Assembly (NCBI GenBank): GCA_011046055.1 | Contig: DSBN01000233.1 | Span: 1 to 10,290 of the forward strand | Source of the DNA: Sediminispirochaeta sp. | GTDB taxonomy: Bacteria; Spirochaetota; Spirochaetia; DSM-16054; Sediminispirochaetaceae | Reading direction: 5' to 3' | Length of the DNA: 10,290 nucleotides | Shown: positions 31 through 10,290 of the stretch, one piece after another | Position numbering within the stretch: position 1 is the first letter of the stretch | Layout: each line of letters starts with the position of its first letter | Program-made: the position numbers and the translations under genes | The notes under the pieces: generated by a model | Seen by the model: the letters and a program-made list of their open reading frames with translations, nothing else | The model's database searches: none | Told to the model about the DNA's origin: nothing

Positions 31-77
31 GCAAATTCTCAGTTTGGAAGTCAGAAGACTTCCAAACTGAGAATTGC
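31..77. repeat. long perfect inverted repeat (hairpin) upstream of rlmE
   Basis: Arms 34-52 and 57-75 are perfectly complementary over 19 bp around a 4-nt AGAA loop. Two more G-C pairs (31-32 with 76-77) form if A33 bulges out. The stem is AT-rich, unlike the GC-rich coding DNA around it. No T-run follows on the + strand; on the minus strand the following bases are only mildly T-rich. It could be a bidirectional terminator for a gene left of the window, or a copy of a dispersed intergenic repeat. The structure is certain, the role is not. Confidence 0.6.
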
Positions 78-5351: not shown

Positions 5352-5378
5352 GCCTCAGGCCGGTCGGCGGCCTGAGGC
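5352..5378 (-). terminator. GC-rich hairpin directly after htpG
   Basis: Arms GCCTCAGGCC (5352-5361) and GGCCTGAGGC (5369-5378) form a perfect 10-bp stem, 11 bp if G5362-C5368 also pairs, with a 5-nt loop. It begins 5 nt past the htpG stop codon. No T-run follows directly, so it may protect the mRNA 3' end or act together with the T-tailed structure further downstream. Confidence 0.5.
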
Positions 5379-5383
5379 GGTGT

Positions 5384-7255
5384 TTATACCGCCTTCTCCA
5401 GGATTCGGTTCAGACGCTTCACGAAGTCCGCCGGCTTTTTGAGCTCCGCGCCTTCGACCAGCATCGCCTGTTCCAGCAGCAGGAAGCTCACATCCTCCAG
5501 CAAGGACTCGTCCTGGCTGTCGCGCAGCTTGTTGACAATCGGGTGATTGGGGTTCACCTCCAGGATCGGTTGGTACTCGGGAACGTCCTTCTGCCCCATC
5601 GCCTTGAGCATCTGCTGCATCTGCACGGTGGGGTCGTTCTCGTCGGCCACAATACAGGAGGGAGAGTCGCTCAAACGGCTGGAGGCGACCACATCTTTGA
5701 CTTTGTCGCCCAAGACCTTTTTGATCCGCTCCAGCAGGGGCTTGACCTCCTCTTCCTTCTCCTTGTCATCTTCGCTTTTCAGCTCCTCATCGGCTCCGGT
5801 ACGGTTGACCGATTTGAGCTCCAGCTCCCCGTACTTTCCGATGGAGGGAACCACGATCTCGTCGATGTCGTCGTCCATCAGCAGGACTTCTATCCCTTTC
5901 TTGCGGTAGGCTTCGAGGAGGGGAGAGTTGCGCAGGGTCTCCTCATCTTCGCCGGTGATGTAGTAGATCGCCTTTTGCTCCTCCTTCATCCGCTCCTGGT
6001 ACTCCGCCAAGCTGGTGTAACCCTCGGTCTCGGAGGACTTGAAGCGTACCAGCTCCAGCAGTGTCTCCCGGTTGGCGAAATCCGAATAGAGCCCCTCTTT
6101 GAGGGGGCGGTTGTACTGCTCGATGAACTTTTGGTATTTTTCCGGGTCCTTCTCGGCGATGTTCTTGAATTCGCCCAGCAGCTTCTTCACCGAGGAGTTT
6201 CTGATCTGACTCATCACCCGGTTCTGCTGCAGGATCTCCCGACTGACGTTCAGAGGCAGGTCGTCGGAGTCGATGACTCCCCGGACAAAACGCAGATAGG
6301 TGGGCATCAGCTCCTTCGAATCGTCGGTGATGAAGACCCGTTTCACGTAGAGTTTGACCCCCGGCTCGTAGTCCGCCTGGTACATGTCGAAGGGCGCGTG
6401 CTGGGGTACGAAGAAGAGAGTGGTGTACTGCAGGGTCCCTTCGGCCTGGGTATGGAGGTAGAACAGCGGATCCTCGTTGTCGTGGCCGATGCTCTTGTAG
6501 AACTCGTGGTACTCCTCCTCGGTGATATCAGACTTCGCCCTCTTCCACAGTGCCGAGGCCTTGTTCACCTGATCCCGCTTGTGTTCGATTTTTTCTTTTT
6601 TATCATCCCCCTCCCCTTCGTAGCTCTTCTGATCGTACTCGAGGAAAATGGGAAAGGCGATGTGGTCGGAGTACTTCTTCACCAGCTGTTCGATCTGCCA
6701 GCGGTTGGCGTACTCGCTGCCTTCGTCGTTCAGGTGGAGGGTGACGGTGGTCCCGTTCTCCTCCCGGGCAGCCTCCTTGATGGTGTAGGCCTCCTCACCG
6801 GTGCTGCTCCACAGCCAGGCCTGTTCTTCTCCGGCCTTGCGGGTGAGGACCTCAACCTTGTCGGCCACCATGAAGACGGAATAAAAACCGACTCCAAACT
6901 GACCGATCAGGTTGGCGTCCTTGCTGGCATCTCCGGTGAGCTGGTCGAGAAAGCTCCGAGTCCCGGATCGGGCGATGGTACCCAGCTGACCGTCCAGGTC
7001 TTCGCTGTTCATACCGATACCGTTGTCCGCCACGGTCAGAGTGCTCTTGTCCTCGTCGAACTCGATCTCGATTCGCGGTTCGAAGTGCATCTTTTTGAAC
7101 TCTTCGTCGGTGAGGGTGAGGTATTTCAGCTTGTCCAGGGCGTCGGAAGCGTTGGAGATGAGCTCCCGAAGAAATATCTCCTTGTGCGAGTAGAGACTGT
7201 GAATAATGAGTTTGAGTAGCTGTGAGACTTCCGTCTTAAACTTGTGCTTGGCCAT
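5384..7255 (-). CDS. htpG: molecular chaperone HtpG (Hsp90 family)
   Basis: The bacterial Hsp90, an ATP-driven homodimeric cytosolic chaperone that remodels partly folded clients. At 623 residues it is full length (E. coli about 624). The N-terminal GHKL ATPase domain shows Glu31 and Asn35 (FLRELISNASDAL), Asp77 in VADNGIGM, GTIARSGT (92-99) and the lid motif GQFGVGF (118-124). The middle domain has the catalytic Arg340 in LPLNVSREILQQN. The C-terminal dimerisation domain is complete and, as in other bacterial members, lacks the eukaryotic MEEVD tail. A charged linker (about 213-228) is rich in Glu, Asp and Lys. The ATG at 7255 has AAGGAG 6 nt upstream. The gene has its own promoter, and a complement of the ribosome binding site lies in its 5' UTR. 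No CIRCE element is visible. Confidence 0.98.
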   Translation of the reverse strand: MAKHKFKTEVSQLLKLIIHSLYSHKEIFLRELISNASDALDKLKYLTLTDEEFKKMHFEPRIEIEFDEDKSTLTVADNGIGMNSEDLDGQLGTIARSGTRSFLDQLTGDASKDANLIGQFGVGFYSVFMVADKVEVLTRKAGEEQAWLWSSTGEEAYTIKEAAREENGTTVTLHLNDEGSEYANRWQIEQLVKKYSDHIAFPIFLEYDQKSYEGEGDDKKEKIEHKRDQVNKASALWKRAKSDITEEEYHEFYKSIGHDNEDPLFYLHTQAEGTLQYTTLFFVPQHAPFDMYQADYEPGVKLYVKRVFITDDSKELMPTYLRFVRGVIDSDDLPLNVSREILQQNRVMSQIRNSSVKKLLGEFKNIAEKDPEKYQKFIEQYNRPLKEGLYSDFANRETLLELVRFKSSETEGYTSLAEYQERMKEEQKAIYYITGEDEETLRNSPLLEAYRKKGIEVLLMDDDIDEIVVPSIGKYGELELKSVNRTGADEELKSEDDKEKEEEVKPLLERIKKVLGDKVKDVVASSRLSDSPSCIVADENDPTVQMQQMLKAMGQKDVPEYQPILEVNPNHPIVNKLRDSQDESLLEDVSFLLLEQAMLVEGAELKKPADFVKRLNRILEKAV

Positions 7256-7388: not shown

Positions 7389-7417
7389 TTGCACTTAATC
7401 CTAACGCAAGATATAGT
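7389..7417 (+). promoter_or_regulatory. promoter of the leader ORF-CNNM unit
   Basis: TTGCAC (7389-7394) and TATAGT (7412-7417) are separated by exactly 17 bp. The predicted start near 7424 lies about 6 nt before the ATG of a 23-codon leader ORF and about 74 nt before the CNNM start codon. CTTGC (7388-7392) and GCAAG (7406-7410) form a small inverted repeat overlapping the promoter and could be a repressor site. Confidence 0.65.
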
Positions 7418-7429
7418 AAGGTTACGATC

Positions 7430-7501
7430 ATGGACGACGATCCGCTTCCTTCACATAACGACAAAAAACTCCGACTCGGTTGGTGCTGGGAAAAGCTATG
7501 A
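7430..7501 (+). CDS. putative 23-residue leader peptide (MgtL-like) before the CNNM gene
   Basis: A short ORF begins at ATG 7430, just after the predicted transcription start. It encodes 23 residues and ends at TGA 7499-7501, overlapping the CNNM ATG (7498-7500) as ATGA. The peptide opens MDDDPLP and continues through a DKKLRLGWCW segment. From memory, enterobacterial MgtL opens MEPDPTPLP and continues with a basic RRRLKL stretch; acidic/Pro N-termini like that destabilise translating ribosomes when Mg2+ is low. The downstream gene belongs to a Mg2+ transporter family. The CNNM start has only a weak GGGA-like site, so its translation may depend on ribosomes finishing this ORF. An AAGG (7418-7421) could be a ribosome binding site only if transcription starts earlier than predicted. 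The frame is open far upstream of the promoter, so openness itself is no evidence. Expression is unproven. Confidence 0.5.
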   Translation: MDDDPLPSHNDKKLRLGWCWEKL

Positions 7502-8742
7502 TTTTCCAAGCCCTGACCATCGTAGTGCTGATTTTTCTCTCAGCGGTATTCTCCTCCTCCGAGACAGCCTATACCTCGCTCTCCTTCCTCAAGCTTCAGG
7601 AACTTCTCAAGTACCACGGGCGAAGCGGCAGGTTGGTGAAATATCTCAGCGAACGTCCGAACATCCTGCTGACCACAATCTTGATCGGCAACAACCTGGT
7701 CAACATCGCCGCCTCCGCCTCGGCTACCCAGATGACCATTGTCCTCTTCGGCAATCAAGCGGTGGGAATCATGACCGGGGTTTTAACGCTGATCATTCTC
7801 ATCTTCGCCGAGGTCACCCCCAAACATCTGGCTATTCTCCACAGCGACAGGATCGCCCTCCGGATGGCCTACCCGATCAGGTTCCTCTCTATCCTGCTCT
7901 ACCCGGTGATCAAGCTCATCGGCTTCGTCAGTATCGCCATCACCAGCCTTTTTTCCAAGGAACAGCGATCCGAGATCTCCCTGGAGGGTATTTTGCACAT
8001 GGTGCACCTGGCCGAACGGGAGGGGGTGGTGGAAAATTACGAGACCAGGATGGTCAAGAGCGTGTTCCGCTTCAACGACACCCAGGTACAAACCATCATG
8101 ACCCACCGGACGGACGTCTTCAGCCTCGAAGCGGACAGAAGCCTGGGCGAGGTGCTGAAGGAGGTCACCGAGCGGGGTTACTCCCGAATTCCGGTCCACG
8201 ACGATAACCCGGAGCACATAGTGGGCATCCTGCTGGTCCGGGACATGATGAAGTACATCGCCGAAGAGGCGGAGCAGACGCTTATCCGAGACATCATGAC
8301 CCAGCCGATCTTCGTCTCGGAGACGCGCAAGGTGAACGAGCTTTTTTTTCTCTTCAAAAAAGAGAAGTTGAACATCGCCGTAGTGATGGACGAGTACGGC
8401 GGCTTGGCCGGGATAGTGACCTTGGAAGACGTGGCGGAGGAGCTTTTCGGGGAGCTCTACGACGAGAACGAAATCCAGGGCTGGGAAAAAATAACTCCCC
8501 TGGAGGACGGACAGTTTCGCATCACCGGCGATACCTCACTGCACCAGCTCAACGACCGTTTCAATATCAGCTTCGAGCACAGCAAGTACGTCCAGACCCT
8601 CGGCGGTTTTCTGATCGAGTATCTCGGAGCGATACCGGTACAGAACCAGAAAATCGAGACCCCCATGGGCAGCTTCGTCGTCGAATCGCTGAACAACAAG
8701 AGGATCGAGACGGTCATTTTCACTCCCGCCGCGCCGGATTAG
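7498..8742 (+). CDS. CNNM/CorC-type DUF21-CBS ion (Mg2+) transporter family protein
   Basis: An integral membrane protein of the HlyC/CorC (CNNM, MpfA, CorB) family, whose studied members move or help export Mg2+. The 414-residue product has an N-terminal DUF21 domain (1-150) with the family's ion-site motifs SSSETA (19-24), NNLVNI (65-70) and AEVTPKHLA (104-112). A CBS pair follows (about 197-255 and 262-318), ending in the signature DEYGGLAGIVTLEDV and EELFGEL. A C-terminal CorC/HlyC domain covers 333-409. Old labels such as haemolysin are misleading. The ATG at 7498 is preferred over TTG 7480 and GTG 7483, since it begins at the hydrophobic helix and overlaps the stop of the small upstream ORF. 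The true substrate (Mg2+, Co2+ or other) cannot be read from the sequence. Confidence 0.93.
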   Translation: MIFQALTIVVLIFLSAVFSSSETAYTSLSFLKLQELLKYHGRSGRLVKYLSERPNILLTTILIGNNLVNIAASASATQMTIVLFGNQAVGIMTGVLTLIILIFAEVTPKHLAILHSDRIALRMAYPIRFLSILLYPVIKLIGFVSIAITSLFSKEQRSEISLEGILHMVHLAEREGVVENYETRMVKSVFRFNDTQVQTIMTHRTDVFSLEADRSLGEVLKEVTERGYSRIPVHDDNPEHIVGILLVRDMMKYIAEEAEQTLIRDIMTQPIFVSETRKVNELFFLFKKEKLNIAVVMDEYGGLAGIVTLEDVAEELFGELYDENEIQGWEKITPLEDGQFRITGDTSLHQLNDRFNISFEHSKYVQTLGGFLIEYLGAIPVQNQKIETPMGSFVVESLNNKRIETVIFTPAAPD

Positions 8743-8812: not shown

Positions 8813-8841
8813 TTGACGCAATGCCCAGGAGTGAATATCAT
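8813..8841 (+). promoter_or_regulatory. leuS promoter producing a leaderless mRNA
   Basis: TTGACG (8813-8818) and TATCAT (8836-8841) are separated by exactly 17 bp. The predicted start, seven bases past the -10 box, falls on the A of the leuS ATG at 8848. No Shine-Dalgarno sequence is properly spaced before that ATG; the nearest AGGAG is 17 nt away, inside the promoter. Confidence 0.6.
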
Positions 8842-8847
8842 TCGGCC

Positions 8848-10290
8848 ATGAGCAAGTACCCATTCAACGAAATCGAAAAGAAATGGCAGGACTACTGGGA
8901 GGAGCAGAAGACCTTCAAAGCGGTGGAAGATCCTTCGGTTCCTGAAGACAAGCGCCTGTATGTGCTGGACATGTTCCCCTATCCCTCTAGCCAGGGTTTG
9001 CACGTGGGACATCCGGAAGGATACACCGCGTCGGATATCTACAGTCGTTTCATGAAGATGCGGGGCTATCAGGTCCTCCATCCCATGGGATTTGACTCTT
9101 TCGGTCTACCGGCGGAGAACTACGCCATCAAGACCGGAACCCTCCCCAGGGTCTCTACGGAGCAGAATATTGAGCTGTTCACCACACAGATAAAGACTCT
9201 CGGTTTCAGCTACGACTGGGACCGCAAAATATCGACCCACGACCCGAACTACTACAAATGGACCCAGTGGATCTTTCTCAAGCTCTTCGAGCAGGGTCTG
9301 GCCTACGAAGACGAGGCGCCGATCAACTGGTGCCCCTCGTGCAAAACAGGACTGGCCAACGAAGAGGTCAAGGAGGGGCGCTGCGAGCGCTGCGGAGAGG
9401 AGGTCACCCGCAAGAGCATCCGCCAGTGGATCCTCAAAATCACCAACTACGCCGACCGTCTATTGGAGGACCTGGAGCTGCTGGACTGGTCCGAGTCGAT
9501 CAAGTCGATGCAGCGAAACTGGATCGGTCGCTCCGAGGGGGCCAACGTCAAGTTCAAGCTCGCCGACGGCAGTGACGAGTTTTCCGTATATACCACCAGG
9601 CCGGACACCCTCTTCGGCGCCACTTATATGGTACTCGCCCCGGAGCACCCCTTGGTGCACCGGATCACCACCGCGGACCTAAAAGCGGCGGTGGAGGAGT
9701 ACCTCGAAGAGGCACGGAAGAAGTCAGACCTAGAGCGGACCGATCTGGCCAAGGAGAAGACCGGCGTGTTCACCGGCGCCTACGCGATCAACCCGGTGAA
9801 CGACCAGAAGATACCCATCTGGGTCGCCGACTACGTGCTGATCAGCTACGGCTCCGGAGCGATCATGGCTGTTCCCGCCCACGACCAACGGGACTGGGAG
9901 TTCGCCAAGACCTTCGACCTGCCGATTGTCGAAGTCCTCTCCGGAGGCGACGTGGAAAAGGAGGCCTTCGTCGGCGACGGCCCCCATGTGAACTCCTCCT
10001 TCCTCGACGGTTTGGGCAAGGACGAGGCGATCGACAAGATCACCGCCTGGCTGGAAGAACGGAGCCTCGGCGAACGGGCGATCAACTACAAGCTGCGCGA
10101 CTGGATCTTCAGCCGTCAGCGCTACTGGGGCGAGCCCATTCCCCTGGTCCACTGCGAAAAGTGCGGCTCGGTACCCGTTCCCGAAGATGAGCTGCCCCTG
10201 ACCCTGCCGGAAGTGGATACCTACAAACCCACCGGCACCGGCGAGTCGCCCCTGGCGGCGATCGAAGATTGGGTCAACACCACCTGCCCC
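8848..10290 (+). CDS. leuS: leucyl-tRNA synthetase, N-terminal part (runs off the window)
   Basis: A class Ia synthetase that charges tRNA-Leu with leucine. The first 481 codons are present and open to the last base; the KMSKS loop and anticodon-binding domain lie beyond the edge. Visible are the HIGH-equivalent HVGH (52-55) after [11 protein letters not shown], the ZN1 module with Cys162, Cys165, Cys179 and Cys182 (WCPSC...CERC), and the CP1 editing domain with the Thr-rich TTRPDTLFG (249-257) and AVPAHDQRD, whose Asp346 matches the editing Asp of E. coli Leu[14 protein letters not shown] (421-432) marks the return to the catalytic core. The ATG at 8821 is in frame but lies between the -35 and -10 boxes, so 8848 is the better start. 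From memory the sequence is very close to Treponema/Spirochaeta LeuRS. Confidence 0.98.

Follow-up and report, generated by a model that had tools for sequence, protein, structure and literature searches.

Background

The bacterial Mg2+ leader peptides that we found in the literature are enterobacterial and mostly control importers via RNA structure. In E. coli, acidic residues were described to act within the first 30 amino acids, and the EPDP stretch of MgtL causes ribosome drop-off at low Mg2+ (PMC11282234). According to the same source MgtL acts via RNA conformation and Rho, raising the importer at low Mg2+. The mgtL stop is located 140 nt before mgtA, a gene for a P-type ATPase importer, and a long structured leader RNA lies between the two.

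Further systems share single features with the locus described here. In MgtQ of the Salmonella mgtC-mgtB region, acidic residues destabilise ribosomes and set the translation of a Mg2+ transporter; however, MgtQ is an intergenic peptide of 8 aa which frees the mgtB ribosome binding site from a stem-loop, raising mgtB (PMC8092293). CorL is likewise an upstream ORF linking Mg2+ to a Mg2+ transporter gene (corA), but it has a UUG start, a structured leader and a requirement for Rho, and its translation lowers corA (PMC11552253). The enterobacterial YoaL-MgpA (YoaE) pair and the N-terminus of CorC (YbeX) concern CorC-domain genes of Mg2+ protection, with the same predicted direction as proposed below. 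YoaL overlaps yoaE by 13 nt, and its start was reported to be needed for full MgpA translation (PMC12421838). With 53 codons including the stop (MDRHRRHFSIRPF...) and no acidic/Pro core the YoaL peptide is unlike the spirochaetal leader, and we rejected it as a homologue. For CorC the IRD sequence is described within the gene itself and not in a leader (PMC12421838).

CruR of Bordetella is a metal-responsive upstream ORF heading a metal-transport operon, here for copper. It differs in being a Rho-dependent arrest peptide with CXXC and RAPP motifs, followed by a 162-bp intergenic region that its authors state to be incompatible with coupling (PMC9426467). In human cells TRPM7 and PRL are under Mg2+ control via upstream ORFs, and PRL belongs to the CNNM pathway; these systems are eukaryotic, and their main product increases when Mg2+ is low (PMC11855589).

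The window, a stretch of 10,290 nt from a 68% complete genome of the spirochaete Sediminispirochaeta, resembles the mgtL locus in that a Mg2+ transport gene is preceded by a very short peptide that opens with acidic residues and Pro, and the drop-off at low Mg2+ is presumed to be shared. The first-pass annotation had drawn this parallel from the MgtL opening MEPDPTPLP, which is indeed that of the E. coli peptide record; the window leader opens with MDDDPLP. Unlike mgtL, the spirochaetal leader overlaps the start of its gene with no structured RNA in between and no conserved fold, the gene is of the CNNM/CBS/CorC_HlyC type and probably encodes an exporter, and the predicted polarity is opposite. 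We take the leaders to form a new family of putative regulators, of a known kind but with an architecture that is new for it. A literature text search, with most subscription papers and bioRxiv outside its coverage, gave no title or opening abstract on this leader among the matches listed.

Results and discussion

Structure of the leader-CNNM locus

The features of the region are listed in Table 1. On its two sides the CNNM gene is flanked by what we take by eye to be a divergent htpG-like gene (5384-7255, minus strand) and leuS, respectively. The nearest named CNNM record, from the MAG Spirochaetia bacterium Tobar18m-G11, shared 77% identity with the CNNM protein of the window.

Table 1. Features of the leader-CNNM region, numbered from the first letter of the window
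Feature	Position	Strand	Basis
Promoter: TTGCAC, 17-nt spacer, TATAGT	7389-7394 and 7412-7417	+	sequence read directly
Leader ORF, 23 codons, MDDDPLPSHNDKKLRLGWCWEKL, ATG 7430, stop TGA 7499-7501	7430..7501	+	read directly
Acidic/Pro core, leader codons 1-7 (MDDDPLP)	7430..7450	+	kept among relatives
Weak Shine-Dalgarno-like stretch GGGAAAAG of the CNNM gene, within the leader	7488..7495	+	read directly
ATGA: leader TGA overlapping the CNNM ATG (7498-7500)	7498..7501	+	read directly
CNNM/CorB-type gene, 414 aa, CNNM + CBS pair + CorC_HlyC	7498..8742	+	Pfam

The first-pass annotation had proposed a promoter with 17-bp spacing. Its layout and coordinates were right, but the -35 box is weak, with only 3/6 consensus matches, and the promoter was absent from the output of a generic promoter scan. 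Transcription typically starts 6-8 nt past the -10 box. On this assumption the window leader would have a 5' UTR of about 4-6 nt, in agreement with the earlier placement of the 23-codon ORF some 6 nt behind the predicted transcript start. Its coordinates were confirmed, as was the ATGA overlap with the CNNM gene. The duplex energy of the region around GGGAAAAG is about -4.2 kcal/mol.

Two strong terminator-like hairpins were also seen in the window: one of 19 pairs at 34-75 (minus strand) near the left edge, and one of 11 pairs at 5352-5378 (plus strand) just beyond the end of the htpG-like gene.

Distribution of the leader among Spirochaetia

CNNM orthologues of the class Spirochaetia were collected and their upstream DNA was inspected for leaders by a composition-blind rule. 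The rule accepts an ATG-initiated ORF of 10-75 aa with its stop at -15 to +21 relative to the CNNM start, picks the leader start by the best -10 box and scores the motif as [D/E]P within the first 25 residues. Two loci, L018 (47 nt of upstream DNA) and L002 (a paralogue), were excluded from the outset. Among 139 loci an ORF was present at 111 and a -10 box of at least 4/6 at 92, and 74 of these 92 carried [D/E]P. After the first counts we dropped two rows of family f25 (MEIEPEK...), which are probably the end of another gene. The numbers thereby changed from 74/92 to 72/90 and from 62 to 60 start-defined leaders; the codon test, the 63% stop-position null and the per-genus count given below still contain f25.

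As a control the same rule was applied to 396 ORFs, shadow ORFs included, in 400 kb of seven genomes. An ORF plus box was found at 50 of them, three with the motif, one of which was itself a CNNM leader, leaving 2/49. The difference from 72/90 is large (Fisher p 1.3e-19, with the loci not being independent). With the f25 rows removed, 32 of the 61 genera covered contained motif leaders, as did 18 of 32 families. The 23-codon ORF of the window thus belongs to a conserved leader family ahead of CNNM genes in Spirochaetia, in line with the first-pass annotation, which had proposed a spirochaetal leader-peptide system with an acidic/Pro short ORF.

A genome of the same genus carries the leader MDDDDPFSSKLKPHSTAWECSRTNSSPIMSEGVR* with an identical ATGA overlap. 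Other leaders read MDDDPLPDPIFLFPLPTA*, MDDDPYPEPIYTLEISAK*, MEDPLPSTDK..., MDDPDPFLCT..., MLDPDPLPNR... and MNDTDPLPLR.... Sphaerochaeta halotolerans (L188), a cultured species, has MDDPLPSIGC.... All 60 start-defined leaders contain at least two acidic residues in positions 2-8. The first [D/E]P is located at residues 2-18 in the 74 blind-rule leaders, an IRD-type placement inside the 30-aa range of E. coli. A core like Lys-Lys-Leu-Arg-Leu, previously put forward as an MgtL-like feature, was present in 1/60 leaders, that of the window itself, and is ruled out as a conserved feature.

A degenerate DNA pattern for MDDDPxP gave 10 matches, spread over six genera, in 297 Spirochaetia genomes, against one match of the reversed pattern. 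All 10 coincided with the leader start of the CNNM gene of the respective genome, and their codons varied synonymously.

Selection on the core and position of the leader stop

Codon differences were compared within genera, with the core defined as position 2 to two codons past the first [D/E]P. In 428 comparisons the core showed 75 synonymous versus 53 non-synonymous differences, and in 623 comparisons the next eight codons showed 46 versus 358. The synonymous share to be expected for single changes is 22% and 23%, respectively. The core is therefore under purifying selection as a peptide, and the remainder of the leader is not. An excess of synonymous substitutions had been suggested as a check on the leader; it was found, confined to the core.

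The first stop fell within -15 to +21 of the CNNM start in 60/60 start-defined leaders, with lengths of 12-49 aa. The figure has to be read against a null of 63% obtained by shuffling the intervening bases. Counted per genus, the stop was near the CNNM start in 28/28 (f25 genus included), the loci being related and not independent trials. The exact ATGA was present in 28/60, and in some leaders the overlap with CNNM extends to 13-17 nt or more. No conserved RNA fold was detected, the mean z being -0.22 across 60 loci and that of the window -1.20, and there was no Rfam match in the window at gathering thresholds, which argues for the stop-start overlap as the conserved output module.

Promoter and translation initiation of the leader

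TATAAT-like boxes (at least 5/6) were located 5-14 nt ahead of the leader ATG in 42/66 motif leaders, compared to 5/66 in each of two control windows. The leader -35 boxes scored 4.0 versus 2.47 after shuffling (n=56). Assuming from general knowledge a start 6-8 nt past the box, the predicted 5' UTR is about 0-7 nt family-wide. Shine-Dalgarno sequences were absent at leader starts (mean -1.05 kcal/mol, n=60, versus -4.83 in 302 control genes, p 9e-14). Since the ATG follows so soon after the TATAAT box and no Shine-Dalgarno sequence is found, the leader mRNA is probably near-leaderless.

The same layout was seen at leuS, whose loci were found among L003-L038 by an N-terminal pattern (in the window: region 8813-8850, ATG 8848). 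In 21/21 loci a TTGAC-type -35 box was followed, at 17-nt spacing, by a TATCAT-type box 5-7 nt ahead of the ATG, and the proteins started MSKYPF-type, not acidic. This suggests near-leaderless leuS mRNA across these spirochaetes, so that near-leaderless starts look ordinary here.

The CNNM gene

The assignment of the partner gene to the CNNM type was borne out by a Pfam search (CNNM transmembrane domain PF01595, E 1.3e-46; CBS PF00571, 3.7e-20; CorC_HlyC PF03471, 4.5e-16). Among the relatives of known structure are CorB/CorC-type chains from bacteria and archaea as well as human CNNM4. CNNM/CorC-type proteins have been tied to Mg2+ export, as for MpfA, and the export activity of MpfA and CNNM proteins is described as still debated (PMC6711546). 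The Salmonella genes corC and mgpA were reported to be induced by high Mg2+ (PMC12421838). By analogy the window CNNM protein is a probable Mg2+ exporter.

Behind leaders the CNNM start has an ordinary Shine-Dalgarno sequence (-4.70 versus -4.83 kcal/mol in controls, p 0.79). Raw accessibility was slightly lower than in controls (0.401 versus 0.441, p 0.012), but the difference vanished after control for flank composition (p 0.78), so that sequestration of the CNNM start was not adopted as an explanation. With Shine-Dalgarno and accessibility both ordinary, independent initiation at CNNM would thus be possible. Strict translational coupling of leader and CNNM is what we infer from the overlap.

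Loci without leader and history of the family

The test of orthologues that the first-pass annotation had suggested came out mostly in favour of its reading, with exceptions: no such leader was present in the Borreliaceae, in either genome of the sister genus g2 or in a number of further families. In total, 28/139 loci had no ORF by the blind rule, both g2 genomes among them. Two of the 28 (L098 and L102) in fact carry MDDPLS/MEDPLS leaders and were missed, an ATG further upstream having been mistaken for the CNNM start. The ORF was absent by this rule in three of four Borreliaceae-like loci, and the fourth had an ORF without the motif. About half of the sampled genera had no called motif leader. 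In g2 (L004, L005) a GATAAT box precedes the CNNM ATG by about 8 nt; the leader seems to be missing there, with CNNM as the first, near-leaderless ORF of the transcript.

Degenerate leaders exist as well, for example MDDYHSY... and MEVPLI.... The MDDYHSY/H... ORFs at L044, L047, L048 and L049 (f43, g88) kept the acidic start and the overlap and lacked the acidic-Pro pair.

Among named loci a [D/E]P leader was flagged in 40/80, with 0/8 in Borrelia/Borreliella, 0/6 in Thermus, where the CNNM starts are uncertain (TTG picked by the script), and 0/6 in Bacillota/Actinomycetota. From other classes of the phylum, 43 of 46 genomes had a match; 30 CNNM loci were fetched and 27 inspected, L297 and L300 being excluded for a missing N-terminal part and L280 having no start. 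These 27 loci yielded a single borderline leader. It belongs to L278, a non-Spirochaetia locus, where MDDGDQPLHHRPSAK... follows a TATAGT box with its stop at +7 past the CNNM start and may be a leader.

A midpoint-rooted CNNM tree was built from 58 rows, namely 56 of the 80 named loci, the window and L004. The leader label required 11 changes on it, versus a shuffled mean of 19.0. All 33 leader rows were inside a 51-row spirochaete group and scattered across it, and the rows of Thermus, Bacillota and Actinomycetota were all leaderless. It is plausible, though not proven by the tree, that the leader is old among spirochaete CNNM orthologues and was lost repeatedly.

Proposed mechanism and alternatives

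We propose that the leader is a cis-acting Mg2+ sensor which works through its own translation. At low cytosolic Mg2+, ribosomes on the [D/E]n-P core, with the exit tunnel almost empty, would be destabilised and drop off, as in E. coli MgtL. Judged from the architecture, fewer ribosomes would then arrive at the leader stop, re-initiation on the overlapping CNNM ATG would decrease and less exporter would be made; with ample Mg2+ the leader would be completed and the exporter produced. Beyond the core the leader would be a mere open frame carrying the ribosome to the CNNM start. The switch would be OFF when Mg2+ is low, with a logic opposite to that of mgtL-mgtA. Less CNNM at low Mg2+ agrees with the link of this family to Mg2+ export. 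For CorC, in whose N-terminus an IRD sequence is reported, regulation in this direction was proposed as well (PMC12421838). We put the probability of this reading, a coupled sensor based on ribosome destabilisation that lowers a Mg2+ exporter at low Mg2+, at roughly 0.6.

The same sensor might also operate with opposite polarity, translating ribosomes covering the CNNM Shine-Dalgarno sequence so that their abortion at low Mg2+ raises CNNM. That this sequence sits inside the leader and that the overlap reaches 13-17 nt or more in some leaders would suit such an arrangement, and there are precedents: destabilisation at Asp2/Glu5 of Salmonella mgtQ raises mgtB translation (PMC8092293), and translation of corL and mgtL lowers corA and mgtA, respectively (PMC11552253). 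Yet mgtQ, corL and mgtL make use of RNA structure over longer stretches, whereas the spirochaetal leaders have no conserved fold, and it would be maladaptive to make extra exporter when Mg2+ is scarce. An ATGA overlap is, moreover, the usual layout of positive coupling. We therefore regard the opposite polarity as unlikely. Even less probable, in our view, is that the leader senses nothing and constitutively boosts re-initiation, loading ribosomes on a near-leaderless mRNA and handing them to CNNM. The absence of Shine-Dalgarno sequences at leader starts and their presence at CNNM starts would be expected from this, short upstream ORFs are common (150/396 control ORFs), and a survey suggested that re-initiation from short leaders increases expression in numerous bacteria, among them Spirochaetales (PMC4833913). 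That survey, as it describes its scope, covered leaders not overlapping the structural gene. Such a booster leaves unexplained why the acidic/Pro core alone is conserved, and its tie to CNNM.

The core might respond to a translation state other than Mg2+, such as EttA, EF-P, the bL31 level or ribosome stress. Acidic motifs are EttA-dependent in E. coli (PMC11282234). The EttA-type model TIGR03719 scored above cut-off in 6/10 genomes and bL31 was found in 9/10 (the miss being the incomplete G000), but the leader-bearing G194, G236 and G010 had no TIGR03719 match above cut-off. PP occurred within the first 12 residues in 7/60 leaders and was missing there from the other 53. Given that the partner is a gene of Mg2+ homeostasis, we consider sensing of another state rather improbable. 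A nucleotide signal in place of a peptide, such as an enhancer acting on the start codon of leaderless mRNA, could account for a motif always close behind the ATG of a seemingly near-leaderless mRNA. It is contradicted by the variation of Asp codons (GAC 94, GAT 56) and Pro codons (CCT 67, CCG 24, CCC 17, CCA 15), by the confinement of the synonymous excess to the core, and by leuS, which shares the promoter-ATG layout yet has a non-acidic start in 21/21 loci; we rejected this reading as hardly credible.

Initiation on leaderless mRNA uses 70S ribosomes. To the coupled sensor that lowers the exporter, leaderless initiation may add a second Mg2+-dependent step. The fuller model would be a thermostat that evolved independently, in which a near-leaderless mRNA carries drop-off trap codons and the leader stop is the exporter start. 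Mg2+ would be read twice by the ribosome, in 70S-dependent leaderless initiation and then in early elongation across the acidic/Pro codons. The survival of ribosomes would translate directly into exporter synthesis, and neither an RNA switch nor Rho nor a protein regulator would be involved. The polarity would be the reverse of that of MgtL, and the origin old, with repeated losses. We offer this model tentatively and place it a little short of even odds.

Such a leader, joined by stop-start overlap to a probable exporter gene in another phylum, would imply that intrinsic ribosome destabilisation came into use for Mg2+ sensing on more than one occasion, that it can be wired in either direction and that an RNA switch is not required. 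The leader family offers a testable hypothesis on the control of Mg2+ efflux in spirochaetes. Its natural variants, of 12-49 aa and with many cores, would be useful for learning which sequences destabilise ribosomes.

Pattern matches outside CNNM loci

A wider regulon sharing TATANT and an M[DE]DPL/F-type start was considered and rejected. In 392 genomes of the phylum the pattern gave 17 matches (reversed control 3), nine of them at CNNM leaders. Of the other eight, four coincided with the beginning of one common 177-aa ORF, three were found at ORFs of 59, 11 and 14 aa, and one fell inside an ORF which by eye we presume to be DegP-like. As these eight have no shared partner, no regulon is claimed. 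The 177-aa ORF was seen at L257-L260, four genomes of family f20 (Borreliaceae, judged by position and size), unlinked to CNNM, where TATANT lies about 9 nt before an ORF start reading MEDPFDF....
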